A model generated the notes under the pieces. The model did no database searches. It worked only from the letters and a program-made list of their open reading frames with translations, and had not been told where the DNA came from. A program made the position numbers and the translations under genes. Positions 1,043 to 21,000 of a stretch of 45,894 bases of DNA are shown here, piece by piece (the first letter of the stretch is position 1; every line of letters starts with the position of its first letter). Location of the stretch: positions 1-45,894 of IMG/VR virus record IMGVR_UViG_3300020459_000017. One strand, 5' to 3'. This stretch comes from a virus.

Positions 1043-1963
1043 ATGCAATTACTTCACATCGAACATCCTGAAGATTCTATCCTAACAGGCGACCTATCCG
1101 TATTAGATTGGTTTATTGAATCTGATAGTAAAATATCACTTAAAATTGATGGATCACCTTCAATAGTATGGGGAACTAACCCTGAAACTGGTAATTTCTT
1201 TGTAGGTACTAAAAGTGTATTCAATAAGGTAAGGAAAAAGATAAATGAGTCGATTGATGATATTATATTAAATCATCCTAATGAGGAATTACAAGAGATA
1301 TTAATAAGTTGTTTTGAGAATCTACCTAGAACTCATACCATTTATCAAGGTGATTTTATAGGATTTGGTGGTGATGATTACTATCAACCTAATACTATTG
1401 GTTACTTGTTTCCACATAAGATAGATCATAATATTATCATTGCACCCCATACAACCTATGATGTAGTTGGGAATACATTGCTTGATACTGTTGCAAGACC
1501 ATTAACCTATGAGTTAGATGGTACTTATGATGGTGTTTTATTTGTTCAATGTGATGCACAGGGTGACTTTGCAAATGAAATTAGAGATAATTGTAAGTTT
1601 GCTAAACAAATGGGTAAACTACCAGTATATGTGGATAGAAATAAAGCAAATAAGATAAAACAGTCTATCAATCAATGTATAAGATTGAGTAGTAGACCAA
1701 TAATTATGGATGATGAGTTAGAAATTATTGCTGATGTTCATAATGTTGATATTAATCTATTAAGGTTATGGCAGTTGGTTAAATCAATTAAAGAGGATGC
1801 ACTTTATATGTGTAAGCATAACGCATGGTTCATATCATACCTTGACGAAGAGATAGATGGTGAGGGATATGTGATGACCAATAAGCATGGAACATATAAG
1901 TTAGTAGATAGGGAGCAATTTAGCAGAGCGAATTTCTTACGCTATAGTGGACGTGTCAGTTAG
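1043..1963 (+). CDS. KxDG-motif protein, probable nucleotidyltransferase/ligase-fold (DUF6267-like)
   Basis: This 306-residue protein begins one base after the metallopeptidase stop. It contains KIDG at residues 34-37, the signature of motif I in DNA/RNA ligases and capping enzymes, where lysine carries the nucleotide. Further along are GTKSVF near 55-60, YQGD at 101-104 (like motif III) and DGVLF at 163-167 (like motif IV). The order and spacing are compatible with an adenylyltransferase core. A final KxK motif is not clear, so activity is uncertain. Phage proteins of this kind are usually listed as uncharacterised; a nucleic-acid ligase or a non-catalytic relative are both possible. Its stop codon lies within a degenerate copy of the 24-bp palindrome. 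Confidence 0.65.
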   Translation: MQLLHIEHPEDSILTGDLSVLDWFIESDSKISLKIDGSPSIVWGTNPETGNFFVGTKSVFNKVRKKINESIDDIILNHPNEELQEILISCFENLPRTHTIYQGDFIGFGGDDYYQPNTIGYLFPHKIDHNIIIAPHTTYDVVGNTLLDTVARPLTYELDGTYDGVLFVQCDAQGDFANEIRDNCKFAKQMGKLPVYVDRNKANKIKQSINQCIRLSSRPIIMDDELEIIADVHNVDINLLRLWQLVKSIKEDALYMCKHNAWFISYLDEEIDGEGYVMTNKHGTYKLVDREQFSRANFLRYSGRVS

Positions 1964-2010
1964 ACAACTGTCCACTCACTATGGCATGGTGGTTATTCTA
2001 CCATTATAAT
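1952..2010 (+). promoter_or_regulatory. Palindrome-type promoter for the 2036 operon
   Basis: A TATAAT -10 lies at 2005-2010, inside TTATAATAAGTACATCA, a leader that recurs at 3906 and 8303. No good -35 is visible. A degenerate palindrome upstream has inner arms CAGTT (1957-1961) and AACTG (1966-1970), centred 41.5 bp before the -10. Outer arms AGTGGAC (1946-1952) and GTCCACT (1970-1976) also pair. A hairpin (ATGGT/ACCAT, 1986-2004) directly precedes the -10. Confidence 0.6.
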
Positions 2011-2035
2011 AAGTACATCACCTAAAGAGGTTTCC

Positions 2036-2272
2036 ATGAAAGAGACAATGTACTTGGTTAAGGACATTGAATTTGATATTACCGATGGTGGTAATAGCGA
2101 AGATGAATGGACTTATGAAGAGTATGAGAGTCTCAAGCACGATGCCATTGGTTTATGGTATGCTAAAAATGAAAATCATTTATGTGATAAAATCACAAAT
2201 AAGTTAGGTTTTGGTATTCTTTCAATAGATTGCACTACCAACACTTTACATCCACTTACTTCCTACATGTAG
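2036..2272 (+). CDS. Small acidic hypothetical protein
   Basis: This 78-residue protein is the first gene after the promoter at 2005. ATG 2036 lies 31 bases after the -10 start, with a purine-rich AAAGAGG at 2024-2030 as ribosome binding site. It is acidic in its first half (DGGNSEDEWTYEEYE) and has no motif I recognise. It likely heads a co-transcribed run to about 3444. Confidence 0.75.
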   Translation: MKETMYLVKDIEFDITDGGNSEDEWTYEEYESLKHDAIGLWYAKNENHLCDKITNKLGFGILSIDCTTNTLHPLTSYM

Positions 2273-2281
2273 GACATTGTT

Positions 2282-2461
2282 ATGCAACTTGAATTATTAA
2301 AAACAAATCCAATACTCACAGTTGATGAGTATGAGTTAATTAGTGAGGGATTAAGTGTCTATGCAGATACACTTAATGATGGTAAAGGCATTACTCTCAT
2401 TAATAGGCAAGTAGGTAGATTACTTGCTAAATTAGAAACTCTATTACCTGATGAGGACTAA
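2282..2461 (+). CDS. Small hypothetical protein
   Basis: This is a 59-residue frame from ATG 2282 to TAA 2459-2461, nine bases after the previous stop. It is leucine and glutamate rich, mostly helical by eye, and not recognised. Its stop overlaps the next start as TAATG, as expected for coupled genes in this operon. Confidence 0.65.
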   Translation: MQLELLKTNPILTVDEYELISEGLSVYADTLNDGKGITLINRQVGRLLAKLETLLPDED

Positions 2462-2790
2462 TGAACATCCGTACCAGACAGGAACTAATTGGTAACAACC
2501 TAATGGATATTATTGATGATTACCCTGACCAATTAAGGGTAGTCATTGATGAATTAGTTTCAAATTTGAATCATAGTCAATTAGATAACATTGAGGATCT
2601 AATTGTAAACAATTATGGTGAAGAAGAGATGGACTGGGAGGGAATTAAAACTGCATCTGATGTTGAGAAGTGTATTGTAGACACTAATGGAGCGTATGCA
2701 GAGTGTGTTGATAGATTAGTAGACTCAATGGAAATTACAGAATTTCAGGAGGAATTAGAAGTAAAGAAATTCGTTAGGGACAATCCATGA
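2461..2790 (+). CDS. Acidic hypothetical protein
   Basis: This 109-residue protein starts at ATG 2461 in a TAATG overlap and ends in an ATGA overlap with the zinc-ribbon gene. It is acidic throughout, with predicted helices separated by short turns. No catalytic or binding motif is visible and no family is recognised. It is a member of the 2036-3444 transcription unit. Confidence 0.7.
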   Translation: MNIRTRQELIGNNLMDIIDDYPDQLRVVIDELVSNLNHSQLDNIEDLIVNNYGEEEMDWEGIKTASDVEKCIVDTNGAYAECVDRLVDSMEITEFQEELEVKKFVRDNP

Positions 2791-2975
2791 TTACTAAAAC
2801 AGTATCATTCAAACCTATCACTCCTAGAGCAAGGGCAGGGAAGTGGGGTAAACACATTATGTGTCCTTGTTGTGAATCAATTACTAAAGTTTATCACTTT
2901 AGTTGGTGTGGTCTACAATGCCAACACTGTAAGCATGATATAGATAAATCACTATGGTCAGTGGAGGTCAAATGA
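2787..2975 (+). CDS. Small zinc-ribbon protein
   Basis: This 62-residue basic protein has two cysteine clusters: CPCC at residues 26-29 and CGLQCQHC at 41-48. Their spacing suggests a zinc ribbon of about 25 residues. Such small ribbons in phages commonly bind nucleic acid or RNA polymerase, but the target cannot be read from the sequence. ATG 2787 overlaps the upstream stop, and the TGA at 2973-2975 overlaps the next ATG. Confidence 0.75.
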   Translation: MITKTVSFKPITPRARAGKWGKHIMCPCCESITKVYHFSWCGLQCQHCKHDIDKSLWSVEVK

Positions 2976-3166
2976 TTGAACCAATAACACTTACAGTTAA
3001 TTTAAGTGAGGCAATAGAAGATTTACAACTTGGTCTGTCTAAAGATCAAGTTGAGTTTATTGCTAATGATATTAAACGTGGATGGGATTTTAGTCACATC
3101 TATGAAGAGATTGAAGCGAAGGTGGAGGAATCTGCCCGATATGCAAACATTACACTTGAAAACTGA
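2972..3166 (+). CDS. Small hypothetical protein
   Basis: This is a 64-residue protein from ATG 2972, chosen over an upstream in-frame ATG at 2954 because GGAGG at 2963-2967 is well placed and the ATG overlaps the previous stop. It reads as amphipathic helices with many acidic residues (EAIEDLQLGL, then EEIEAKVEES). The family is not recognised. It ends in TGATG coupled to the next gene. Confidence 0.7.
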   Translation: MIEPITLTVNLSEAIEDLQLGLSKDQVEFIANDIKRGWDFSHIYEEIEAKVEESARYANITLEN

Positions 3167-3444
3167 TGTCACTATCAAATACCAGCATTGTTCAAATTGC
3201 TGATGCACTTGTCCCTGAAGTGATTGATTATTTAAGAAAAGACGAAGAATCCAAGATACAAATATTATTAGGTGAGATGGTAGGTGATGCTGTCTGTAGG
3301 AAATTAGGCAAAATAAATTCTGATGGTTCATGTTCGATTGATGGTCAAATTAATCGTGAACTTATTCTTACCATATTATCAAGAGTTAAGTTACATGCTA
3401 TGACACTTGATGAAGTGTCCCCAGATGACACCGTAGGTGGTTAA
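3166..3444 (+). CDS. Hypothetical protein
   Basis: This 92-residue protein starts at ATG 3166, coupled to the upstream stop. The N-terminal half is helical and the C-terminal part carries several hydrophobic residues (ELILTILSRV). No motif is recognised. The 24-bp palindrome copy at 3399-3422 lies within its last codons and the hairpin GTGGTTA/TAACCAC spans its stop, so the end of this gene doubles as the control region of the next operon. Confidence 0.7.
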   Translation: MSLSNTSIVQIADALVPEVIDYLRKDEESKIQILLGEMVGDAVCRKLGKINSDGSCSIDGQINRELILTILSRVKLHAMTLDEVSPDDTVGG

Positions 3445-3457
3445 TAACCACTATAAT
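3399..3457 (+). promoter_or_regulatory. Palindrome-type promoter for the 3481 operon
   Basis: Perfect arms GACACTT (3402-3408) and AAGTGTC (3413-3419) form a palindrome centred 41.5 bp before the TATAAT at 3452-3457. Between them lies a perfect hairpin, GTGGTTA-A-TAACCAC at 3437-3451, touching the -10. No -35 is visible. ATG 3481 follows 29 bases after the -10 start. Confidence 0.65.
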
Positions 3458-3480
3458 AAGAGAGTACAAGGGAACAACCC

Positions 3481-3720
3481 ATGAACAGTATTTCTGAACA
3501 AATCATGACCGACATTGATTGGTTAATGGATGAATGTGGTATGGATGATGAACAATGTGATGAGATCATTCAGGCATGTGAAGAATTGGGTGGCATCAGT
3601 GCAGAGTATTTCTGCGAAGAGTTTATCTTTGAAACTGATGATCCTGATGACATACCCAGACTTCATAGTGATGATTATCTAAACATTGCACACTTCAACG
3701 CATTATGGTGGGAACAATAA
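3481..3720 (+). CDS. Acidic hypothetical protein
   Basis: This 79-residue, very acidic protein (frequent DE and DD pairs with cysteines at CGMDDEQCDE) is the first gene after the -10 at 3452. The leader is A-rich and a Shine-Dalgarno sequence is weak. It ends in TAATG with the next gene. No family is recognised. Its charge resembles DNA mimics, but that is only a resemblance. Confidence 0.7.
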   Translation: MNSISEQIMTDIDWLMDECGMDDEQCDEIIQACEELGGISAEYFCEEFIFETDDPDDIPRLHSDDYLNIAHFNALWWEQ

Positions 3721-3911
3721 TGAATAAAGTTTTTACTGAAGATCAAAGAAACCTAATCATTTGGTGTTTAGAACAAATGTGGTTAGACTTTAATCCACAA
3801 GAGGAACAGGATGCCCATGATGTCATGGAGTTGGTATCCAAAATGACTGAGATTGTGCCAGTTGAAGAACCGTCACATCGACACGTGCGTAAGGATATGG
3901 ATCTATTATAA
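3720..3911 (+). CDS. Small hypothetical protein
   Basis: This is a 63-residue protein. ATG 3720 is preferred over the in-frame ATG at 3705 because it overlaps the previous stop as TAATG. Tryptophan and acidic residues dominate, with a histidine/arginine patch near the C-terminus (PSHRHVRK). Its last third contains palindrome copy 3854-3877, and its TAA is embedded in the -10 of the next promoter. Confidence 0.7.
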   Translation: MNKVFTEDQRNLIIWCLEQMWLDFNPQEEQDAHDVMELVSKMTEIVPVEEPSHRHVRKDMDLL

Positions 3912-3912
3912 T
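3854..3912 (+). promoter_or_regulatory. Palindrome-type promoter for the 3938 operon
   Basis: A full 24-bp palindrome copy (left arm TGTGCCAGTT at 3854-3863, right arm AACCGTCACA at 3868-3877) is centred 41.5 bp before TATAAT at 3907-3912. The -10 sits in the same TTATAATAAGTACATCA leader as at 2004. No -35 hexamer is visible. ATG 3938 follows 31 bases after the -10 start. Confidence 0.7.
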
Positions 3913-3937
3913 AAGTACATCACCAAAGGAGTTCATC

Positions 3938-4183
3938 ATGTGCAGTTCAATCGAAGATTTCATTGATTACATCTACTCATTCTATAATGTAGTTGATGGT
4001 CTGTATCCTGTATATGGATGCACCAAAACTAAAATTGAGTGTGCTATCCATGAGTATTGGAAACAAATTGAAAAGTATCCAACTGTATTGACATGGGGTT
4101 ATGGTGATTCACTTGATCGTGAGAGAGTCAGAGACATCATGTTTGAAATGTTTCCAGCAATTTCTTACAAAGAGGAGGGTTAA
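3938..4183 (+). CDS. Hypothetical protein
   Basis: This 81-residue protein is rich in aromatic residues (Tyr, Trp, Phe) and probably a compact helical fold. AAAGGAG at 3925-3931 is a good ribosome binding site for ATG 3938. It is first in a two-gene unit with 4189. I do not recognise the family. Confidence 0.72.
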   Translation: MCSSIEDFIDYIYSFYNVVDGLYPVYGCTKTKIECAIHEYWKQIEKYPTVLTWGYGDSLDRERVRDIMFEMFPAISYKEEG

Positions 4184-4188
4184 GCGAA

Positions 4189-4563
4189 ATGGACAACATG
4201 AATTTCCTATCTGAAGTATTAGAAGACTTCTGCAACAAGAATGATCTACCATTTATCAGTGCGGATGATATATTATATTCATCCACATCCGATGGTGAAG
4301 TCGAATTAACTGAATACCAAAAGGATTGGTTACGCAATTACATTGAGGTATGGGACAGGACTGAACAGAATAGTATTCATGTAGAGATCCCATCATACCA
4401 GCATAAGGATGTAATTCGTCAATTAGATGATGCCATTGATGTATGTGGTAGAGCAACATCTTATGACGATCATCCTGACCATACTAAAACATATCCTTTT
4501 GCATCAGGGTATGCAAAGTCAGCAATGAGAGAGGTTAAAGAAAGGTTGCAAAGATACGGATAA
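4189..4563 (+). CDS. Hypothetical protein
   Basis: This 124-residue protein has an acidic N-terminal half and a basic C-terminal tail (MREVKERLQRYG). The middle contains a histidine-containing loop (YDDHPDHTKTYPF, around residues 92-104). No known motif is recognised. It starts five bases after the upstream stop and ends just before a TATAAT at 4569, so it closes its transcription unit. Confidence 0.7.
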   Translation: MDNMNFLSEVLEDFCNKNDLPFISADDILYSSTSDGEVELTEYQKDWLRNYIEVWDRTEQNSIHVEIPSYQHKDVIRQLDDAIDVCGRATSYDDHPDHTKTYPFASGYAKSAMREVKERLQRYG

Positions 4564-4568
4564 TCTGC

Positions 4569-4585
4569 TATAATTTACATAAATA
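4569..4585 (+). promoter_or_regulatory. Tandem -10 and T4-type late promoter before 4624
   Basis: TATAAT at 4569-4574 is followed at once by CATAAATA at 4578-4585, which fits the NATAAATA late-promoter form known for T4-like cyanophages. No 24-bp palindrome is found at the usual 42-bp distance, so this promoter belongs to a different class from those at 2005, 3452 and 3907. Confidence 0.45.
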
Positions 4586-4623
4586 TATTGATTCATTGTT
4601 TATTCTATTCGGGGGAATTTCTG

Positions 4624-4920
4624 ATGAAAAATGTCGCATTTAAAGAAGAAGAATTTAAGATGGTTCAAATTCTATTACAGAATCATTTGGACGATCTTAC
4701 AGAGAATGAGTTTTTTAAACATTCTCAAGATACTCATCATAAGGAAAATGTATGTATGAGTGCTATTACTGCAATGAGACATCCTATTGCTGAAGAAGTA
4801 TGGGGTATTCATCAGGAACTTCCAGAGGATCAACAATTAGATCGTGAGACGTTTATGAAGAAATTCTATTCTGCTTATAGTTCTGAATATTATGATATGG
4901 TGGAGTTGGTAAGTGACTGA
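4624..4920 (+). CDS. Hypothetical protein
   Basis: This 98-residue protein is read from ATG 4624, preferred over an upstream TTG because GGGGGA lies about ten bases before it. It is helical, rich in Glu, Gln and His (KHSQDTHHKENV), and not recognised. Its end overlaps a GTG-started gene by eight bases. Confidence 0.7.
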   Translation: MKNVAFKEEEFKMVQILLQNHLDDLTENEFFKHSQDTHHKENVCMSAITAMRHPIAEEVWGIHQELPEDQQLDRETFMKKFYSAYSSEYYDMVELVSD

Positions 4921-5095
4921 TGATGAAATTGCCAACTTTATAAGTTTGTTCCAAGACTTCATGCAACGTGCAGAGGTTGAGGAATTAAATTATATCAGAC
5001 GTGAGGCACATCGTCAATACCAAAAGTCTTATTACTTACATAAGGCAACAGAGTTAGGAATAACTCTTGATTATTACATTGCTGAATTTACTTGA
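4913..5095 (+). CDS. Small hypothetical protein with GTG start
   Basis: This is a 60-residue helical protein with a positively charged middle (YIRREAHRQYQKSYY). The only start before the conserved-looking part is GTG 4913, inside the end of the previous gene, so translation is probably coupled. No family is recognised. Confidence 0.62.
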   Translation: MTDDEIANFISLFQDFMQRAEVEELNYIRREAHRQYQKSYYLHKATELGITLDYYIAEFT

Positions 5096-5101
5096 ATTAA
5101 A

Positions 5102-5185
5102 ATGGTTTATTTTATTGGTCTAACAATGGTTCTTACTGTTATTGCATTTGTTTATTATTTGGGACTATATAATCCACATAACTAA
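5102..5185 (+). CDS. Micro membrane peptide
   Basis: This is a 27-residue frame, almost entirely one hydrophobic stretch (FIGLTMVLTVIAFVYYLGL), with stop TAA at 5183-5185. It sits between two coupled genes with one-base spacing to the next, so it is probably translated. It would be a single-pass inner-membrane peptide. The function is unknown. Confidence 0.5.
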   Translation: MVYFIGLTMVLTVIAFVYYLGLYNPHN

Positions 5186-5186
5186 T

Positions 5187-5351
5187 ATGAGAATGAATCG
5201 ACATACTGAACTCATTTTCGCATTAGAACATGTATCACATTTAGAGGATTATATTCAAAAGGAATCACCTCTAATACATCCATTAACTACAATTAAGATT
5301 GAGTTAGAAAAGGAACTAAAACAACATCGGAGACGTCGCAATGGCAACTAA
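5187..5351 (+). CDS. Small hypothetical protein with basic tail
   Basis: This 54-residue protein starts at ATG 5187 (ATG 5193 is an alternative). It has a helical body and a C-terminal arginine cluster (KQHRRRRNGN), which could bind nucleic acid. It overlaps the start of the 5341 gene by 11 bases. No family is recognised. Confidence 0.65.
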   Translation: MRMNRHTELIFALEHVSHLEDYIQKESPLIHPLTTIKIELEKELKQHRRRRNGN

Positions 5352-5508
5352 ACTTTGGAGAGTAGAACAACAAGGAACAATGGGGTGGGAAGTTGTTCAT
5401 CCTACAGCAATTAGACTGAATAAAGAAGATGCAAGGAAGTGGTTAGAAAATCAAATCAATGAGGGTGTAAATCCTAGAGACTTGAGAGCAATCCCTGATA
5501 TTAAATGA
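5341..5508 (+). CDS. Small conserved-looking hypothetical protein
   Basis: This 55-residue protein begins MATKLWRVEQQG and carries LNKEDARKWLENQINEG, a helix followed by NPRDLRAI. Its look resembles small proteins shared by many T4-like cyanophages, though I cannot name a family. ATG 5341 overlaps the previous gene, and the next start follows after four bases. Confidence 0.7.
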   Translation: MATKLWRVEQQGTMGWEVVHPTAIRLNKEDARKWLENQINEGVNPRDLRAIPDIK

Positions 5509-5512
5509 ATCA

Positions 5513-5872
5513 ATGTATGAACCTGAAGTCGATGATTATGTACGTTGGACTAATCAGTTAGGACAAGTACATGAAGGATGGGTTTACTTTAAAGGTGACC
5601 CAGTCAATAATTCTAAAAGGGTAAAGGATGGATGGAACCCTACTAGTCAGTATATTACAATAGAGATAGGTATTAGACCAAAAGATACTTGCATTTACAC
5701 GTCTGGGAGACCTATGCGACATAGGATGGTTCATTCATTATTATTATGTAATAGAGAGAACTGGCATGAATTAGAATATATCAAGAATAGGAGAGACACT
5801 ACGAGGGACGCAACGCCCGAAAATATAAGCATGTATAAGAGTCAAGAAGGGAGATATAGTGACCCACAATGA
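5513..5872 (+). CDS. Conserved cyanophage hypothetical protein
   Basis: This 119-residue protein begins MYEPEVDDYVRW, continues with VHEGWVYFKG and YITIEIGI, and has HRMVHSLLLC near residue 70-79. The alternating hydrophobic pattern suggests a small beta-barrel. I associate this pattern with an uncharacterised family frequent in T4-like cyanophages, from memory only. Its stop overlaps the next micropeptide start (ATGA). Confidence 0.75.
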   Translation: MYEPEVDDYVRWTNQLGQVHEGWVYFKGDPVNNSKRVKDGWNPTSQYITIEIGIRPKDTCIYTSGRPMRHRMVHSLLLCNRENWHELEYIKNRRDTTRDATPENISMYKSQEGRYSDPQ

Positions 5873-5946
5873 GTATCAATTACTTGAGAGTAGAGTTAAT
5901 AATTATAGTAGTTCTGATGTTTTCTGCTGTATATTTCTATAAGTAA
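5869..5946 (+). CDS. Micro membrane peptide
   Basis: This is a 25-residue frame with one hydrophobic helix (LIIIVVLMFSAVYF) and a terminal lysine, starting in an ATGA overlap with the preceding gene. The overlap supports translation. It is too short for a family assignment. Confidence 0.5.
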   Translation: MSINYLRVELIIIVVLMFSAVYFYK

Positions 5947-5990
5947 ATATGCAATGATTTAATGAGACAATTAGGGGTGAATATTGTATT

Positions 5991-6224
5991 ATGAGACTGC
6001 AAGAAATCTGGAAGATATGGACATATACACTGGGTAGTTTTAATGATGAAAAGACGAAGAAATATGATGGTATAATATGTGCTTTGAGGAGTATAATATT
6101 CCTACAATTAGTCGTGACGAACTGCTTTATTATTGCAGGGAACATAAGGCATTGGGAGAAGAGTCCTTCATATACTATTGTAGTGCCTAATTGTATAAAC
6201 GACTACAGTTTATCTGAAAAATAA
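5991..6224 (+). CDS. Conserved cyanophage membrane protein, one TM
   Basis: This 77-residue protein starts MRLQEIWKIWTYTLGSF. A hydrophobic segment (LRSIIFLQLVVTNCFIIAG, about residues 32-50) is followed by NIRHWEKSP. The combination of the IWKIWTYTLGSF head and the VTNCFIIAGNIRHW segment is familiar from T4-like cyanophages, where it is uncharacterised. It likely spans the host inner membrane once. It is the last gene of region A before the non-coding stretch. Confidence 0.75.
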   Translation: MRLQEIWKIWTYTLGSFNDEKTKKYDGIICALRSIIFLQLVVTNCFIIAGNIRHWEKSPSYTIVVPNCINDYSLSEK

Positions 6225-6239
6225 GGTTTTAAATATGTT

Positions 6240-6247
6240 TATAAATA
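6240..6247 (+). promoter_or_regulatory. T4-type late promoter match without a gene downstream
   Basis: TATAAATA is an exact match to the T4 late promoter. The next plausible start codon on this strand is about 700 bases away, so it would yield an untranslated or long-leader transcript. Confidence 0.4.
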
Positions 6248-6251
6248 TATC

Positions 6252-6536
6252 TTCGTGTTTTATAAGGGTAGTATCCTTGAGTATCTTTTGAGGGGTTAAA
6301 GGGGGAAATATTCGTGTTTTTAGTGTTCTTATTCGTGTTTAAATGGTGCTACCTTATGCAACCTTTGCGAGCGTACCATGAGGCGTTCGTGTTGTCAAGT
6401 CACAGGGGCGATTTTTTCGTGAATCCACACATAAAATCTCTTCGAGATCTTCGTGTTTTCTAAACTAGATCTTCGTGTTATAATCTCTACTAGATCTTCG
6501 TGTTTATTCGTGTTGACACAACTAGATTTTCGTGCT
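6252..6536 (+). repeat. TTCGTGTT octamer array
   Basis: Exact TTCGTGTT occurs at 6252, 6311, 6332, 6386, 6450, 6472, 6497 and 6507, all in the same orientation. Near variants are at 6416 and 6529. From 6445 on the unit extends to CTAGATCTTCGTGTT (full at 6465-6479 and 6490-6504, variant at 6522-6536). CTAGAT stubs continue at 6559 and 6571. Confidence 0.85.
6474..6484 (+). promoter_or_regulatory. Extended -10 promoter candidate in the octamer array
   Basis: TATAAT at 6479-6484 is preceded by TG one base upstream (TGT-TATAAT), the extended -10 form. The TG comes from the TTCGTGTT repeat itself. No good -35 is seen. Confidence 0.4.
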
Positions 6537-6541
6537 ATAAT
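6513..6541 (+). promoter_or_regulatory. Consensus sigma-70 promoter
   Basis: TTGACA (6513-6518) and TATAAT (6536-6541) are separated by exactly 17 bases, and TGC before the -10 gives an extended -10. All consensus positions match. The spacer is a CTAGATTTTCGTGC repeat variant. No gene lies close downstream. Confidence 0.75.
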
Positions 6542-6639
6542 ATCAGTATGAGTTTCAACTAGATCTTCAACTAGATTTGCGTTCGAGATTCATGTTCGAG
6601 ATAGGCATCATATACTCATACACATAATGCAACTAGATG

Positions 6640-6800
6640 TGTGACACATATACAAGTGGCACAGGTGGGCACCTAGATGCACAGACGCATGATGCACATA
6701 TACACTACATTATAGCATGTGACGCACATACATGTGTCACATCATGTGCAGGTTCATAAGGTGTCACATAGGTGGGCATGACACTTTATGAACTGGCACA
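6640..6800. repeat. Cluster of four 24-bp palindromes
   Basis: Copies lie at 6640-6663, 6718-6741, 6745-6768 and 6777-6800 (the last with a weak left arm). All fit TGTG-N16-CACA or a close variant with the same 24-bp length. None has a -10 at the 42-bp distance seen elsewhere. Short repeats AGGTGGGCA (6663, 6770) and GCACATA also occur here. Confidence 0.6.
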
Positions 6801-6861
6801 GCAATACCAATTCCGATTCTGTCCCTATTATAGCAGATCGGCATCAGAAATCAACGGGCAT

Positions 6862-6921
6862 TGTGACAGTTTGACGACTGGCACATAGGCATTAATAATT
6901 GTTTCATTATATTACTATTAT
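6862..6921 (+). promoter_or_regulatory. Palindrome-type promoter, target unclear
   Basis: The palindrome copy at 6862-6885 is centred 42.5 bp before a TATTAT at 6916-6921. A GTG at 6940 preceded by GGGGGA could be its start codon, giving an amino-terminal extension of the 7114 gene. A small hairpin (GCAGT/ACTGC, about 6958-6973) follows. Confidence 0.4.
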
Positions 6922-7028
6922 TATTTCATCGCAGGGGGAGTGTCGAATATTGATCTAGCAGTTACATCACTGCTCCTTTCCTCTTATACCCATATTATAG
7001 TCCAACCAGCACGGAAATCTACCGACCT

Positions 7029-7088
7029 TGTGCCACTTTATGAACTGGCACACTGGGTATGGCATAGTCTGGAAATATGGGCAATAAT
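7029..7088 (+). promoter_or_regulatory. Palindrome-type promoter for the 7114 gene
   Basis: The palindrome at 7029-7052 (arms TGTGCCACTT and AACTGGCACA) is centred 42.5 bp before AATAAT at 7083-7088. The leader ATACCAAACAAA at 7094-7105 is repeated at 9849-9860 before the 9869 gene. ATG 7114 lies 31 bases after the -10 start. Confidence 0.55.
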
Positions 7089-7113
7089 AGGGCATACCAA
7101 ACAAATCATTCAA

Positions 7114-7356
7114 ATGATTCAATCAGAGCAATTAGGAAGGCATTTCTGGATCTCACCTGATGGAGATTTTTGCAGTTGCCCTACTTTCATAGATGGAACA
7201 CCTGATGCAGCAAATATTGATTACCTCGAAGAGTGGCAAGGGGATGATTTAGGCATCCTAGAGTTTAATGAAATTATCAAAATATATCAACGCCTCATGT
7301 ATAGAAAGGAGGCAGGAGTAGGGGGTTGGGGATTACCCGATTATGTGACAGTTTAG
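7114..7356 (+). CDS. Hypothetical protein
   Basis: This 80-residue protein is read from ATG 7114. The frame is open back to GTG 6940, which would add 58 residues. That extension encodes a palindrome copy and a repeated intergenic module, and ATG 7114 has the same leader and -10 distance as its neighbours, so I prefer it. The product starts MIQSEQLGRHFWISPDGDF and has an acidic middle. Its function is unknown. Its TAG stop lies inside the palindrome at 7344-7367. Confidence 0.6.
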   Translation: MIQSEQLGRHFWISPDGDFCSCPTFIDGTPDAANIDYLEEWQGDDLGILEFNEIIKIYQRLMYRKEAGVGGWGLPDYVTV

Positions 7357-7403
7357 ATACTGGCACACTAGGGGTTGAAAAATACCCCTTCCCATTTTAA
7401 TAT
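7344..7403 (+). promoter_or_regulatory. Palindrome-type promoter with hairpin, for the 7431 gene
   Basis: The palindrome at 7344-7367 is followed by a hairpin AGGGG/CCCCT (7370-7374, 7385-7389). Its loop carries TTGAAA (7375-7380) as a -35, with TAATAT (7398-7403) 17 bases later as a -10. The palindrome centre is 42.5 bp before the -10. Confidence 0.55.
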
Positions 7404-7430
7404 TAAATCATTCACCCAAAGGTTTCAAAC

Positions 7431-7682
7431 ATGGAATTAATTCCACTCGGTTCTAATCAAACTCAAATCAACCTTAAGAATGGAGACTCAGTCTTCTTCA
7501 GTTATCGGACACCCGTGGCGTGTCTGACCATGAACGGGTATTACAAGACCTCTAAAAAGTGGAGCGTAACCACTTCAAGGCATATTAACAAGTGGTTAGG
7601 GGGAGTCCTTGCCAAAGAGCAACCCCAGGAATATTTTGATTCACTTGTTGTTGCCGAGTCAATGGCAAATGTGCCACTTTAG
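7431..7682 (+). CDS. Conserved phage hypothetical protein
   Basis: This 83-residue protein has a compact conserved-looking core: VFFSYRTPVACL, then YYKTSKKWSVTTSRHINKWL. I recall a family of small uncharacterised phage proteins with this SYxTPVA...TSxHINKWL pattern. ATG 7431 is preceded by AAAGG at 7418-7422. The TAG stop lies in the palindrome of the next promoter. The function is unknown; the basic conserved part could bind nucleic acid. Confidence 0.75.
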   Translation: MELIPLGSNQTQINLKNGDSVFFSYRTPVACLTMNGYYKTSKKWSVTTSRHINKWLGGVLAKEQPQEYFDSLVVAESMANVPL

Positions 7683-7729
7683 AAACTGGCACACAAGGGG
7701 GTAGACAACTCTATCCCCTACCCTATAAT
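7670..7729 (+). promoter_or_regulatory. Palindrome-type promoter with hairpin, upstream of the structured leader
   Basis: The palindrome at 7670-7693 is centred 42.5 bp before TATAAT (7724-7729). A nine-pair hairpin with one G-T pair (7696-7704 with 7711-7719) overlaps the -35 hexamer TAGACA (7702-7707); the spacer is 16 bases. This is the clearest member of the promoter class. Confidence 0.7.
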
Positions 7730-7735
7730 AAACAC

Positions 7736-7797
7736 ATAAGGGGCAAGGCGATCCGATAGGATTTAATCCCAAACTGCCAAATTGGGTTGCCCCTTTT
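7736..7797 (+). ncRNA. Structured leader or small RNA ending in a terminator
   Basis: Starting near the predicted transcription start, GGGGCAA (7740-7746) pairs with TTGCCCC (7787-7793), which is followed by TTTT. Inside are ATCC-GATA-GGAT and CCCAA/TTGGG (7768-7772, 7782-7786), giving a three-way junction. It could be an attenuator, a riboswitch-like leader for the gene at 7829, or an independent small RNA. I do not recognise a known class. Confidence 0.45.
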
Positions 7798-7828
7798 ATA
7801 ATTCTTTACAAGTTCAACATTCACAGAC

Positions 7829-7951
7829 ATGGACGACTTTCTATTTGACGCTGACTCTGCTCTTGATGCTCTTATCAATGAGGGAATCCAAGAGGACGAA
7901 GATCAGGACAAACCCTTTGACAGTTGGTTAAAATCATCTCAGGACTTTTAA
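7829..7951 (+). CDS. Small acidic protein
   Basis: This 40-residue, highly acidic peptide (MDDFLFDADSALDAL, then EDEDQDKPFD) lies downstream of the structured leader. TATAAT at 7798-7803 may provide a second promoter. It ends in TAATG with the next gene, supporting translation. No family is recognised. Confidence 0.6.
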   Translation: MDDFLFDADSALDALINEGIQEDEDQDKPFDSWLKSSQDF

Positions 7952-8106
7952 TGCAAGAGCATCACTCTTCACTCTACAATGAGGTCTGCCATTATTTTGA
8001 TGGTCATGTGACAGTTTCTAAAGTGTCACAACATAGGTTTACAAAGGAAGACAAACCTACTAAGATAAAAGTAATCAGGCGAAGAAACGCCCTCACCGAT
8101 TTTTAA
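7951..8106 (+). CDS. Small basic protein
   Basis: This is a 51-residue protein from ATG 7951, coupled to the previous stop. An upstream in-frame GTG at 7924 is less likely. The second half is strongly basic (KEDKPTKIKVIRRRNAL). The palindrome at 8007-8030 lies inside this gene and encodes HVTVSKVSQH, so the regulatory site and coding sequence share bases. The function is unknown. Confidence 0.6.
   Translation: MQEHHSSLYNEVCHYFDGHVTVSKVSQHRFTKEDKPTKIKVIRRRNALTDF
8007..8066 (+). promoter_or_regulatory. Intragenic palindrome-type promoter for the 8109 gene
   Basis: The palindrome at 8007-8030 has outer arms TGTGACA and TGTCACA fully paired and is centred 42.5 bp before TAAGAT at 8061-8066. The leader to ATG 8109 is longer than usual and holds a small GGCG/CGCC hairpin (8079-8091). 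Confidence 0.5.
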
Positions 8107-8108
8107 CC

Positions 8109-8261
8109 ATGTCCCACCCAGTTAACACCGAAATTCTTGAGAACCTTTACGAGGAGGCACTTGAGGAAATAGGCATAAAAGGCGACTCACCTTTTTTCAT
8201 GGATGCTGTTAAAATAGCAAAGCAGCAAGCAATGGATAAATTTCTATCCATGTGCCAATAA
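8109..8261 (+). CDS. Small hypothetical protein
   Basis: This 50-residue, mostly helical protein (TEILENLYEEALEEIG, then VKIAKQQAMDKFLSM) starts two bases after the upstream stop. Its TAA is embedded in the palindrome at 8251-8274. No family is recognised. Confidence 0.65.
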   Translation: MSHPVNTEILENLYEEALEEIGIKGDSPFFMDAVKIAKQQAMDKFLSMCQ

Positions 8262-8309
8262 TCAAAGTGGCACAAGGGAGGTTTAATTCCTCCCTTTCTT
8301 TCTTATAAT
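8251..8309 (+). promoter_or_regulatory. Palindrome-type promoter with hairpin, for the 8338 gene
   Basis: The palindrome at 8251-8274 is followed by an eight-pair hairpin AAGGGAGG/CCTCCCTT (8274-8296). Its loop carries TTTAAT (8282-8287) as a weak -35, and TATAAT lies at 8304-8309 after a 16-base spacer. The palindrome centre is 41.5 bp before the -10. The leader repeats TTATAATAAGTACATCA. Confidence 0.65.
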
Positions 8310-8337
8310 AAGTACATCAACAAAACATCATTTCAAA

Positions 8338-8529
8338 ATGGGTTACACAATCGAAGTTCCAGCAGCACCAGAGAATCAGGAATTCACAACTGATTTGGAT
8401 AGAGCAACCGATCTATGCTATGACCTATCGGTTGAATTTGGTTACGCCTGTGTGCGTAATGACATCACTGGAGACATTGAATTGGACTACGGTGACATCA
8501 TGGAATTAGTAGAAAATCATATCGTTTGA
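8338..8529 (+). CDS. Small acidic hypothetical protein
   Basis: This 63-residue protein starts 34 bases after its -10. The leader ends CATTTCAAAATG, a form repeated before 9304, and has no Shine-Dalgarno sequence. It is acidic and aromatic (DLSVEFGYACVRNDITGDIELDYGD, residues 29 on, described as a predicted sheet). No family is recognised. Its TGA begins the element TGATTTTCTTAA shared with the end of the 9066 gene. Confidence 0.7.
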   Translation: MGYTIEVPAAPENQEFTTDLDRATDLCYDLSVEFGYACVRNDITGDIELDYGDIMELVENHIV

Positions 8530-8577
8530 TTTTCTTAAGATTTGGGAGGTTGAAAAATGCCTCCCTTCCATTATAAT
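8527..8577 (+). promoter_or_regulatory. Second-type promoter with hairpin, for the 8600 gene
   Basis: TGATTTTCTTAAGATTT (8527-8543) stands where the palindrome would be. Then a GGGAGG/CCTCCC hairpin (8544-8565) carries TTGAAA (8550-8555) in its loop as a -35. TATAAT follows at 8572-8577 after a 16-base spacer. Confidence 0.65.
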
Positions 8578-8599
8578 AAACGTAGCAACAAAAACAATC

Positions 8600-8845
8600 A
8601 TGCTTTTTGAAATCATCTCCGACAATGTTGACTTTATGTTCACTGATGTTGAAGAAATCGGAACCAGCGACGTCAGCATATGCGTCAATCGGATCATTAA
8701 AGAGTATGCACCATTCACTGAGGACTATGCCTCAACGCCTACCAGGCAGGTCATCCGACGCATGGTTAACAACTGTATCTCAACATTAAATGACCTACAT
8801 GAGACGCAATGTTGGGAAAATGCATTTTACATAAGAGAGTCATAA
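8600..8845 (+). CDS. Hypothetical protein
   Basis: This 81-residue protein has an acidic N-terminal half and a more basic C-terminal helix (TRQVIRRMVNNCISTLNDL). ATG 8600 is 28 bases after the -10 start, with an A-rich leader and no Shine-Dalgarno sequence. The TAA stop is in the loop of the terminator hairpin. No family is recognised. Confidence 0.7.
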   Translation: MLFEIISDNVDFMFTDVEEIGTSDVSICVNRIIKEYAPFTEDYASTPTRQVIRRMVNNCISTLNDLHETQCWENAFYIRES

Positions 8846-8860
8846 GACTCTCTTTTTTTT
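8833..8860 (+). terminator. Intrinsic terminator containing the stop codon
   Basis: AAGAGAGTC (8833-8841) pairs with GACTCTCTT (8846-8854), followed by a run of T to 8860. The four-base loop holds most of the TAA stop codon at 8843-8845. A second inverted repeat (GTCTTTT/AAAAGAC, 8861-8880) follows directly. Confidence 0.85.
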
Positions 8861-8982
8861 GTCTTTTATAAAAAAAAGACGACACCCTGGGTGGCGAACA
8901 TTTTTGTCATCAGAGCGACCCTGCTCCTCTCTTTGTTTGTTACTCTTATTATAATGCAGCAGCGACAGAAATCATCCGACCC

Positions 8983-9041
8983 TGTGACACTTATTAAACT
9001 GGCACAACTGGCACCCCATTATGCAGACCACTTGCTAAGAT
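8983..9041 (+). promoter_or_regulatory. Palindrome-type promoter for the 9066 gene
   Basis: The palindrome at 8983-9006 is centred 41.5 bp before TAAGAT at 9036-9041. About 30 bp upstream is a TATAAT (8950-8955) that is part of a three-copy composite module. No -35 is visible. Confidence 0.5.
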
Positions 9042-9065
9042 AAAGGTATGGAAAACAAAAACACC

Positions 9066-9230
9066 ATGTTCAACAAAGACTTAACTCCTGCCTTTGGCGG
9101 TGCTGTTCTTATGAATGAAGCAGCAAAAAAGGATAAAGCAGTCATGGCAGCATTGACAAAACTTGCAGAGGACGACTTCACTTTCAGAAGTCACCCTACA
9201 GGACATTGGAACATCAGCGACAAAGACTGA
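9066..9230 (+). CDS. Small hypothetical protein
   Basis: This is a 54-residue protein from ATG 9066. An in-frame ATG at 9048 would lie only about seven bases after the -10 hexamer, essentially at the transcript start. ATG 9066 gives the usual 30-base spacing and an AACAAAAACACC leader like that of the 8600 gene. The product has an alanine/lysine helix (NEAAKKDKAVMAALTKLAED). The function is unknown. Confidence 0.6.
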   Translation: MFNKDLTPAFGGAVLMNEAAKKDKAVMAALTKLAEDDFTFRSHPTGHWNISDKD

Positions 9231-9278
9231 TTTTCTTAACATTTCAGGGGTAGGCAACTGCCCCTTTTCCATTATACT
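9228..9278 (+). promoter_or_regulatory. Second-type promoter with hairpin, for the 9304 gene
   Basis: TGATTTTCTTAACATTT (9228-9244) is followed by an AGGGG/CCCCT hairpin (9246-9265) with TAGGCA (9251-9256) as the -35. TATACT lies at 9273-9278 after a 16-base spacer. The layout and distances equal those at 8527-8577. Confidence 0.6.
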
Positions 9279-9303
9279 AAAGACAACAAACAGGCATTTC
9301 AAA

Positions 9304-9786
9304 ATGACTTCACTCTCAACCAACTGGCAGACTCCTTGGATCAATAACGTAAATTGGTTAATCGACTTGGTCAATGACCTTGGCGACCATGCGACTGACT
9401 ACATTACAGACATTCGCACTATTGCCGACCAACTGTTAGAAGGCGACACTATTAGAGATGAGGTCGAAGAGTTTGCAGACACCCACGGGGTTCACAATCT
9501 AATGTTTTTGCAGGATTACAAAACCGCAGTCGAAGAACTCTCTGAGAGCATTGTAGAGGAATTTCTGGAGGACTTCGGCATGGACATGATTGAACACGCC
9601 CCTGAGATGTATCAAGGCGAATACTACAGCGGAGCAGATTTTGCCGAGAGCATCGTCTCCGACTGCTATGATACAAGAGACTATCCAACATGGGTCCAAG
9701 TGGACTGGGAGGCGACCTGGGACTATGCTCTATCATACGACTACACTATCACTGAGTCGGGTTACGTGTTTAATAGCAACTATTAG
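9304..9786 (+). CDS. ArdA-like antirestriction protein candidate
   Basis: This 160-residue, strongly acidic protein is read from ATG 9304, 31 bases after its -10; the longer open frame back to 9163 covers the previous gene and promoter. The C-terminal half resembles ArdA: GEYYSGADFAE at residues 105-115, VDWEATWDYAL at 133-143 (compare the YIDYEAMARDL form) and a closing GYVF at 153-156. Length and acidity also fit ArdA, a DNA-mimicking dimer that inhibits type I restriction enzymes. The N-terminal half is less similar. The call rests on motif memory, so a family member of other function is possible. Confidence 0.55.
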   Translation: MTSLSTNWQTPWINNVNWLIDLVNDLGDHATDYITDIRTIADQLLEGDTIRDEVEEFADTHGVHNLMFLQDYKTAVEELSESIVEEFLEDFGMDMIEHAPEMYQGEYYSGADFAESIVSDCYDTRDYPTWVQVDWEATWDYALSYDYTITESGYVFNSNY

Positions 9787-9842
9787 ACCAGTTGGGGAAG
9801 TGGCACACGCTTCCCCTATTCGTTCCTTTATCCCCTTATAAT
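9784..9842 (+). promoter_or_regulatory. Palindrome-type promoter with hairpin, for the 9869 gene
   Basis: A degenerate palindrome (left arm CCAGTT, right arm AAGTGGCACA ending at 9807) is centred 41.5 bp before TATAAT at 9837-9842. Its right arm forms the loop of a GGGGAAG/CTTCCCC hairpin (9794-9816). It also contains the TAG stop of the upstream gene. Confidence 0.55.
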
Positions 9843-9868: not shown

Positions 9869-10078
9869 ATGGCAAAGGCAATCGGAACAGTAAGAGCAAC
9901 CGACACCAATGTTAAGGGGCACGTTCTGAGAGCATCATCAGGCGGTGGCATGACCTTCACAAAGGCACGGGGTTTGGGTAAGTGCATGGTCAAAGACCTT
10001 GACGGTGTGATCGCAAGGGCAAAAGCACAGTATAGGTCAGACCGCAGAGCAATGGTCAGACAGGGGTCAGCGACCTAA
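9869..10078 (+). CDS. Small basic hypothetical protein
   Basis: This is a 69-residue basic protein from ATG 9869, 32 bases after its -10; an upstream ATG at 9845 is too close to the promoter. It contains SSGGGMTFTKARGLGKC and an arginine-rich tail (RAKAQYRSDRRAMVRQ). It may bind nucleic acid. No family is recognised. Confidence 0.65.
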   Translation: MAKAIGTVRATDTNVKGHVLRASSGGGMTFTKARGLGKCMVKDLDGVIARAKAQYRSDRRAMVRQGSAT

Positions 10079-18047: not shown

Positions 18048-21000
18048 ATGTCGCAAATTGATAAAAGAATACAAGTCAATAAAATTATTGAGAATCAGTT
18101 ACCCGATTATCTGGTAGCTGATTTTCCTAATGCAGTAGAGTTATTCAAACAATATTATATTTCTCAAGAATATCAAGGAGGTCCAAACGATCTAATTAGC
18201 AACCTTGATCAATACATTAAAGTTGATAATTTAGTTCCCGAAGTTGTTGTTGGTGTTACAACTATAACATCTGCAGTTTCATCATCAGATACTACTATCA
18301 GTGTTCCTTCAACAAAAGGTTTTCCTTCTGAATATGGTTTATTAAAAATTGGTGATGAGATTATTACATATACTGGAATAACAACTAATACATTTACTGG
18401 TTGTGTTCGTGGATTTAGTGGTGTAACTGGATATAATGTTGGTATTACATCATCATTAAATGATGTTAATAAAGAAAATTTAGTATTTGAGGATACTGTT
18501 GCTGCTGCTCATGTTAATGGAACATCAGTCACTAACCTTAGTGTACTATTTTTACAAGAGTTTTATAAGAAATTAAAAAGAACATTCTTACCTGGATTAG
18601 AAAATAATAAGTTTACTGATAAACTTGATGTTGGTAATTTTGTTAAATTTGCTAGATCATTCTATCAATCAAAGGGTATAGAAGAATCTATTAGAATTTT
18701 GATGAAAGTTCTATATGGTGTTGAAGCTAAAGTTTTAGATCTTGAAGATAATTTAATAAAACCATCTGATGCCGAATTTATTCGTAGAGAAATTGTTATT
18801 GCTGATCGTATAGGTACTGGTGATCCAACTAAATTGGTTGGTCAAACAATCTTTAAGTCTACTGATCTTAGAACTAATGCTTCAGTATCTGAAGTAGAAC
18901 CAATAACAAGAGAAGGTAAAACTTACTTTAAGTTATCATTATTTGTAGGATATAGTGATAGAGATTTAATCGAAGGTACTTTTACTGTTCCAGGTAATAC
19001 AAAGGTTATTGAACCAGTTTCAGTTGGATCATCAATTATTGATGTAGATTCTACTATTGGTTTTGGTAAGACTGGAACAGTAGTAAGTGGTGAAAATGTT
19101 ATTTCATATACTTCAAAGAGTGTAAATCAATTCTTTGGATGTAGTGGTGTTGCATCTGGTATTGGTACTGCAGATAATCTTAGATCAAATGAAGTAGTAT
19201 TTGGTTATGCTGATGGTGATTTAAATAAAAAAGTTGAATTAAGAATTACTGGAGTTCTTTCAAAATTCTTGCCAGTATCAGATATTTCACTTGTAAAAGA
19301 GGGTGAGAGGGTATATGTTAGAAATATTGGAGAAAAAATAGAAAATCCTGGTGTAAATCAAACATATAAAGAGATATTTGCAAATTCTTGGATTTATAAT
19401 ACTAGTTCAAAATATGAAGTTAGTGAAATAAATGGTTCAACATTTAGTATAGAGAGTTCTATTGATAGGTCTAGTTTAAGACTTGATGATAGATTTGCTG
19501 TTGTAAAAAGAGGATCTCATGATGTAGAGATAGTAGGTACTGTAAGTAATATTGACAAAAATCTTGGTCAAATAACTCTTGCAAATTTAGGTGGTTGGAC
19601 TCCAGTTGTTGGTCAATATTATGATATTAGAAGAGTTCTTAAGAAGGCATCAAGTTCTGGTGTATCAATTTCTTTAGGTAATGATAATATTATTTCTGAT
19701 GTTTTGAATGTATATACTGACGGTGAGACAGATGGTTATGTTGCTTCAAACTCTCTACCTAGTTACAATATTTCAGCAGCAACATTAAAGGAATCTATTC
19801 CTGTTGCAGATTCAACTAATTTATATAATCAAGGTACAAATAATCTTTATAGTGAAATTGGTTTTCCTGGAAGTGGAGATATTAAGTTTATTCAAGGTGA
19901 TCCAGTTGTTTATACTTGTGGTATAGCAACTCAACCTATGCCTGGATTGGTTTCAGGACAAACATATTATGTTGATACCATTGATAAAGCAACACCATCA
20001 TCTAGAAAGTTTAAAATTAAATTATATCAATCAATTGGACAAATTGGTACTATTAATTCAGTATCTGGAATAACAAATCACGTTCAATTTGGAACAGCAC
20101 CAGGTAGTCATACATTTACTTTATTAAATCATTATAATAGAACTTTAAGAGATAATAGAATATTAAGGAAGATCCCATTATCACAAAATCATTTTGTTAC
20201 TGGAAAGGGGCAGACTCCAGTTAATGATCTAGGTATTTTGATTGATGGTGTAGAAATAAGATCTCAAATACCTGATGATAATATTTTCTTTGGACCAATA
20301 ACATCCATTGACATGTTTAATGGTGGAAAAGGATATGATGTTGTTAATCCACCTCAAGTAGTAGTTGATGATAGTATTATTAGAAGTTCTTCAACAGGTG
20401 CAATAACTGGATATGGCACTACTGCTCTTATTCAACCTGTTTTAGAGGGAACTGTTAAGGAAGTATTAGTAGATCCTCAAGATTTTGATATTGATAAAGT
20501 TAAAACATTAACATTAACTGGTGGTAATGGTACTGGTTGTATTCTTGAACCAGTTATGGGTCCAAGATTTAGGGAATTAGAATTTGATAGTAGGGATATT
20601 TTCTTTGCTGGTGGTGTTTCCATTGCAGACGAAACTATTACATTTACTACAAGTCATAATTTGGCAGAAGGTGAGAAAGTTTTCTATAGTAGTAATGGTA
20701 ATGATAGAATGGGTATTGGGGTATATAAAGATCCTGGAAATACTATTACAGGAACATTAGCAAATGGTGCACCATATCATGTTGGTATAGTTAATGATCA
20801 AACAATTCAATTATATCCATCTGAAAATGACGCTTTATCTGGAATTAATACTATTGGTTTATCTACAGATACAAATGCAAGTGGTATTCATAAATTTAGA
20901 ACAACTTCTAAAAACACTTTAAAAACTATAAGAGTATTAAATTCTGGTTCTGGTTATCAGAATAGAAAATTAAATGTAAGACCATCTGGAATATCAACAG

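Follow-up and report, generated by a model that had tools for sequence, protein, structure and literature searches.

We analysed a 45,894-nucleotide stretch of viral DNA (IMG/VR record IMGVR_UViG_3300020459_000017, positions 1 to 45,894; hereafter the window), in which copies of a 24-bp palindrome stand at a fixed distance upstream of the -10 hexamers of small open reading frames (ORFs). To judge from its sequence, the window is part of a P-SSM2-like T4-type cyanophage (Kyanoviridae, Salacisavirus). We put at about three in four the probability that the phage recruits a GntR-family activator of its host via this palindrome, because the half-sites and their spacing match those of the host promoters for the small RNA Yfr2, these promoters are bound by the GntR-family regulator PMM1637, and tblastn with one picocyanobacterial protein found no cyanophage homologue of the host regulator.

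A palindrome in register with the -10 hexamer

A previous reading of the window from its sequence (hereafter the original prediction) had listed eleven palindromes at a fixed distance from a -10 hexamer. All eleven were found with correct coordinates, and the distance from the palindrome centre to the -10 is always 41.5 or 42.5 bp. Six of these hexamers are perfect TATAAT, two match it at 5/6 positions (TATTAT and AATAAT) and three at 4/6 (TAATAT, and TAAGAT twice). When the palindromes were shifted randomly by 1–40 bp, the mean number of sites with a -10 of 5/6 or better was 0.27, against eight observed, and eight or more were never reached in 20,000 trials. With three or fewer mismatches allowed, the window contains 13 copies of the palindrome itself, where 0.58 would be expected. 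The eight start codons said to follow 29–34 bp after the start of the -10 are likewise all in place as ATG.

Column counts over 534 promoter-linked viral sites gave the consensus TGTGMCASTT-N4-AASTGKCACA, of which the promoter-proximal half is better conserved. These sites include loci chosen for their spacing, so that the spacing claim rests on a separate set, namely IMG/VR contigs fetched solely for containing the palindrome, with the -10 disregarded. For the 216 palindromes of this set, there are 35 instances of an exact TATAAT at a distance of 41.5 bp and 12 at 42.5 bp (47 in total), and no other distance has more than four. Throughout the P-SSM2 genome, nearly all strong palindromes have TATAAT at one of the same two distances, and copies occur far from the small-gene cluster as well (before 44721, 129430 and 132801). 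Further copies keep the spacing, and the element recurs in P-SSM2 and other cyanomyoviruses.

The -35 element, which the site had been suggested to replace or modulate, is weak but not absent: the best TTGACA match averages 3.3/6 in the unbiased promoter set, compared with ~2.4 in shuffled spacers, a value computed on the whole promoter set. The spacer of 29–30 bp often carries a terminator-like hairpin (minimum free energy, MFE, <= -5 in 48%), which gives a cassette order of palindrome, terminator of the upstream gene and -10 of the next gene.

These frequent spacer hairpins, together with several palindromes that overlap the stop codon of the upstream ORF, could be taken to mean that the palindrome itself folds into a hairpin as RNA, such as one belonging to a terminator or antiterminator of the preceding gene. 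The pair statistics led us to reject this explanation, which we regard as very improbable. Positions 8 and 17 are Watson-Crick complementary in 140 sites versus 241 expected, positions 5 and 20 are not complementary above expectation, and positions 8 and 17 carry the same letter (CC or GG) in 338 of 478 cases versus 239.5 expected. Within a site, one half tends to be CAGTT and the other CACTT, contrary to what an RNA stem would show, and the quantity that stays fixed is the distance to the downstream -10. Since positions 8 and 17 avoid complementarity, we treat the palindrome as a DNA site. The proposal of a dimeric transcription-factor site, in fixed helical phase with a weak -35 promoter and serving a phage regulon, is supported.

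The same half-site at host Cyano-1/Yfr2 promoters

The exact palindrome was found in 10 of 386 genomes of the cyanobacterial phylum (none for the reversed control). We examined eleven loci, those of the ten palindrome-bearing genomes and a Xenococcus locus (L251); at nine of them the palindrome lies directly upstream of the small RNA (sRNA) gene Cyano-1 (RF01701), and several Cyano-1 loci show a -10-like hexamer ~42 bp downstream of it. Non-picocyanobacterial cyanobacteria thus carry the full phage-type palindrome at Cyano-1. Small genomes of this phylum sample were rejected as representatives of the picocyanobacteria; most of them are without Cyano-1 and probably fall outside that group.

For the picocyanobacteria proper, defined here as the family of genome G109, the half-site common to phage and host (GTGMCASTT / AASTGKCAC) occurs exactly 28 times in 19 of 67 RF01701 promoters, against 0.28 occurrences expected. 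The exact half-sites are concentrated at one position, which places the centre 42 bp from the -10, and at one locus (L363), where the -10 reads GATAAT, the distance is 42 bp, identical to the phage register. An everted form, AASTGKCACNGTGMCASTT, was found nine times in the 28 picocyanobacterial genomes searched (none for the control), in all nine cases upstream of an RF01701 gene. The original prediction had left the regulator wholly unknown and implicitly of phage origin. This is probably not so, given that the same half-sites and 42-bp register occur at the host Cyano-1/Yfr2 promoter, which is reportedly bound by PMM1637.

A host GntR-family protein as the candidate regulator

PMM1637 is a GntR-family regulator common to all cyanobacteria, and binds the yfr2 promoters containing the element CGRE1, which occurs nowhere else in the MED4 genome (PMC6778093). 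PMM1637 mediates the induction of Yfr2 by nitrogen starvation and by high light, and this paper, which names CGRE1, makes no mention of phage sites (PMC6778093). Exactly one GntR-domain gene per genome was found in 11 of 11 picocyanobacterial genomes tested, and the DNA-binding part of the host protein resembles solved GntR-family regulators. Host and phage share the half-site and a centre ~42 bp from the -10; they differ in number, as the motif stands only at yfr2 in MED4 while the phage has a dozen or more copies. In one picocyanobacterium (G163), a degenerate palindrome with three mismatches (G163:C2:733053-733076) lies just upstream of the GntR gene itself, and autoregulation of that gene is possible.

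We propose that the palindrome acts as a two-half-site operator, which would be centred ~54 bp upstream of the transcription start if the latter is placed 12 bp downstream of the first base of the -10. The protein binding the operator would be the GntR-family regulator of the host, which is PMM1637 in Prochlorococcus MED4 and normally acts at Yfr2 promoters. The T4-like cyanophage would have set the operator before many small genes of putatively early type, and before two candidate structured RNAs of small size. In phase with RNA polymerase, the bound protein would compensate for the poor -35, the place of which the upstream gene's terminator hairpin would often occupy.

The position of the site bears on whether it activates at all. 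Many copies per genome, and three copies in the window without a good -10 (6640, 6718 and 6777), would suit decoys or repressor operators, by which the phage titrates the host GntR protein or holds genes off until release. A decoy needs no fixed distance, whereas a position of ~-54 in fixed phase with the -10 suits activation, and we consider decoys or repression improbable. Activation and repression had been called indistinguishable; the choice can be narrowed, as the host regulator is reported to mediate Yfr2 induction (PMC6778093).

Another possibility is a phage-encoded activator, perhaps carried in the virion, that binds the palindrome as Ogr of P2 or Delta of P4 do at late promoters. Phage regulons are usually under phage regulators, and P2 late promoters also combine a dyad site with a zinc-finger activator (PMC3931495). 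In addition, the palindrome with TATAAT is nearly absent from bacterial chromosomes: a search of 84,980 bacterial and archaeal genomes returned seven contigs, three of which carry several copies each and are cyanophage-like, in assemblies of other organisms. Against a phage activator, the same half-sites and register stand at host Cyano-1 promoters that share no phage DNA there, and for the zinc-ribbon ORF of the window (2787-2975) the only match is to a phage family whose function is unknown. We rate a phage activator as unlikely, albeit slightly less so than decoys or repression. The zinc-ribbon ORF was rejected as an Ogr-like activator, its matches being weak or unknown and the P2 motif being shorter, and the P-SSM2 'transcriptional regulators' T4-GC 319/321 were set aside as of no confident family.

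Several points weigh against recruitment of the host activator. The picocyanobacterial copies are mostly everted (AACTGTCAC-W-GTGACAGTT) or have a degenerate right half (TAGCGCC), unlike the phage arrangement, and the exact half-site is limited to the 19 promoters given above. We take Cyano-1 (RF01701) to be the Yfr2 family, with which a matching GUGAGGAG leader agrees. CGRE1 would be the present motif by virtue of its uniqueness upstream of Yfr2. Binding of the host GntR protein to the phage sites, and activation there, are what we infer from the shared motif, and the early timing of the phage genes is likewise presumed. Finally, good sites are lacking in S-SM2, and the only two in S-RSM4 are degenerate.

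Distribution among phages

The palindrome promoter is present in most Kyanoviridae tested, namely P-SSM2, P-SSM5, S-PM2, P-SSM4, S-SSM7, P-HM2, S-CRM01 and S-SM1, and in weaker form in Syn9. It was absent from T4, KVP40, P-SSP7, Syn5, PSS2 and Ma-LMM01, a set that spans cyanopodoviruses and one cyanosiphovirus. Three contigs filed under Flavobacteria, L249 (NZ_RMVE01000006.1, Nonlabens xiamenensis), L250 and L254 (a metagenome-assembled genome, MAG, of TMED113), bear several cyanophage-type palindrome promoters; L249 also has an ORF resembling a 2-oxoglutarate (2OG)-Fe(II) oxygenase. These contigs look like cyanophage DNA in those assemblies.

Sites and promoter directions in the window

As the palindrome itself has no facing, we read the direction of each promoter from its -10. 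Eight sites are read on the plus strand. The first, a degenerate and weak copy, CGTGTCAGTTAGACAACTGTCCAC (1952-1975, position weight matrix score 7.2), has its TATAAT at 2005-2010, before the ORF 2036-2272. It is followed by the palindromes at 3399-3422 (TATAAT 3452-3457, ORF 3481-3720) and 3854-3877 (TATAAT 3907-3912, ORF 3938-4183). The copy at 7344-7367 overlaps the stop of the upstream ORF and has a weak -10, either TAATAT at 7398 or TTTAAT at 7396, before the ORF 7431-7682. Two perfect palindromes come next: one at 7670-7693, with TATAAT at 7724-7729 and a spacer hairpin formed by GGGGGTAG and CTATCCCC, and one at 8007-8030, with a weak -10, TAAGAT at 8061, and the ORF 8109-8261. At 8251-8274 the spacer is terminator-like (GGGAGG and CCTCCCTTTCTTTC), and TATAAT at 8304-8309 precedes the ORF 8338-8529. 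The last copy, at 9784-9807, has TATAAT at 9837-9842 and an ORF from the ATG at 9869.

For the remaining four sites, at 6745, 6862, 7029 and 8983, a perfect TATAAT stands at 41.5–42.5 bp on the minus strand, so that the view of all sites as rightward does not hold: these four are leftward or bidirectional. The palindrome 6745-6768 was absent from the original list; it reads leftward (TATAAT 6714-6709, 42.5 bp) and is kept in P-SSM2 at 66336. At the other three, the minus-strand hexamer is better than the plus-strand one given before. The copy 6862-6885 is assigned to the minus strand, with TATAAT at 6832-6827 (41.5 bp) and a weaker rightward TATTAT at 6916. The perfect palindrome 7029-7052 probably works in both directions, having TATAAT at 6999-6994 on the left (41.5 bp) and AATAAT at 7083 with an ATG at 7114 on the right. 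The perfect palindrome 8983-9006 may also do so, with a perfect leftward TATAAT at 8953-8948 (41.5 bp) and a weak rightward TAAGAT at 9036. P-SSM2 has the same leftward set, with counterparts of 6862 and 7029 at 66430 and 66591.

A candidate family of structured RNAs

The leftward promoter at 6999 appears to drive a candidate structured non-coding RNA (ncRNA; minus strand, 6999-6880), which would start at ~6987 and contains a hairpin at 6957-6974. A second candidate copy of ~75 nt lies on the same strand behind the 8953 promoter (8866-8942, ends estimated); it has a hairpin of the same type (8928-8911) and ends in a T8 run. Relatives of ~75–110 nt occur in P-SSM2 (66561, minus strand) and at loci L042 and L374-L381. 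The members have a 5' hairpin, and most of them a conserved single-stranded CACTCCCCCTGCGATGAA. In a set of seven distinct sequences, made up of the 8953 copy and six others whose loci carry CACTCCCCCTGCGATGAA, four of the six stem positions have changed on both sides and mostly still pair; the stems were placed by hand and ungapped, because MAFFT misaligned the hairpins, and the pair check is only moderately strong. No Rfam family matched the RNA at gathering scores. To judge by these features, the leftward RNA is a candidate for a new family of phage sRNAs, represented twice in the window.

Source phage and gene neighbourhood

P-SSM2 is the best match of the region, at 74% identity in distant blastn. 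The matching P-SSM2 region holds small genes of unknown function, clustered immediately before gp25-gp6-gp7, and the gene order of the window is the same, including a very long ORF at 18048-32900 that we label gp7-like from its position and size. Within the small-gene cluster, the ORF 9304-9783 matches a PHROG annotated as an anti-restriction protein (E 2.4e-19). To the left of the leftward promoters, a non-coding segment (6252-6530) contains eight copies of TTCGTGTT interleaved with CTAGAT repeats. Two promoters without the palindrome (8528-8577 and 9229-9278) share TGATTTTCTTAASATTT ~43 bp before the -10; a hairpin and a T-run come after it. TGATTTTCTTAASATTT, which was not found in P-SSM2, is possibly a second upstream element.

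Comparison with known systems

P2 late promoters resemble the present ones in having a dyad activator site upstream of the promoter, centred near -55. They differ in a shorter motif, a phage zinc-finger activator, late genes and enterobacterial hosts. The Ogr/Delta consensus is TGT-N12-ACA (PMC3931495); the outer TGT and ACA of the palindrome are 18 bp apart, and we rejected this dyad as its identity. A site for NtcA (GTA-N8-TAC, PMC3037559) or CRP (TGTGA-N6-TCACA) was also rejected, as it does not agree with the 534-site column counts.

The original prediction had compared the element with T4 middle promoters. In both, an activator site stands where a good -35 would be expected; the MotA box lies at ~-30, and the palindrome is unlike it in motif and position. 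Cyanomyoviruses lack motA and asiA (PMC2984593). PeSL cassettes of T4-like phages (Arbiol 2010 and Comeau 2014, cited in PMC4503421) likewise pack a terminator stem-loop together with the next early promoter, and the palindrome may be an element added to such a cassette. PhoB-dependent cyanophage promoters (PMC10976474) also place a host regulator at a phage promoter, but the regulator and its site are different ones, and nutrient genes are concerned rather than a cluster of small ORFs.

We noticed that the element may have a precedent. Doron et al. in 2016 reportedly described a novel regulatory element of early genes in Syn9 and P-TIM40, conserved among T4-like cyanophages. The palindrome promoter is probably this element. 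The element itself is therefore probably known already, and the link to a host regulator may be new.

What a host-controlled early program would mean

The start of transcription in T4-like cyanophages, which proceeds without MotA, AsiA, Alt and Mod, was called unclear in a 2010 review (PMC2984593). It is attractive to speculate further that T4-like cyanophages have placed copies of the host Yfr2 promoter before at least a dozen of their transcription units, that their early program depends on the single GntR regulator of the host, and hence on its nitrogen and light state, and that a structured phage RNA not described before, of which the window has two copies, is transcribed from the same promoters; this wider proposal could, in our judgement, fall either way. 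If a nitrogen- and light-responsive host regulator does govern the early promoters, dependence on it would account for the restriction of the element to cyanophages, and how fast infection proceeds in abundant photosynthesisers of the ocean would be set by the physiological state of these hosts.

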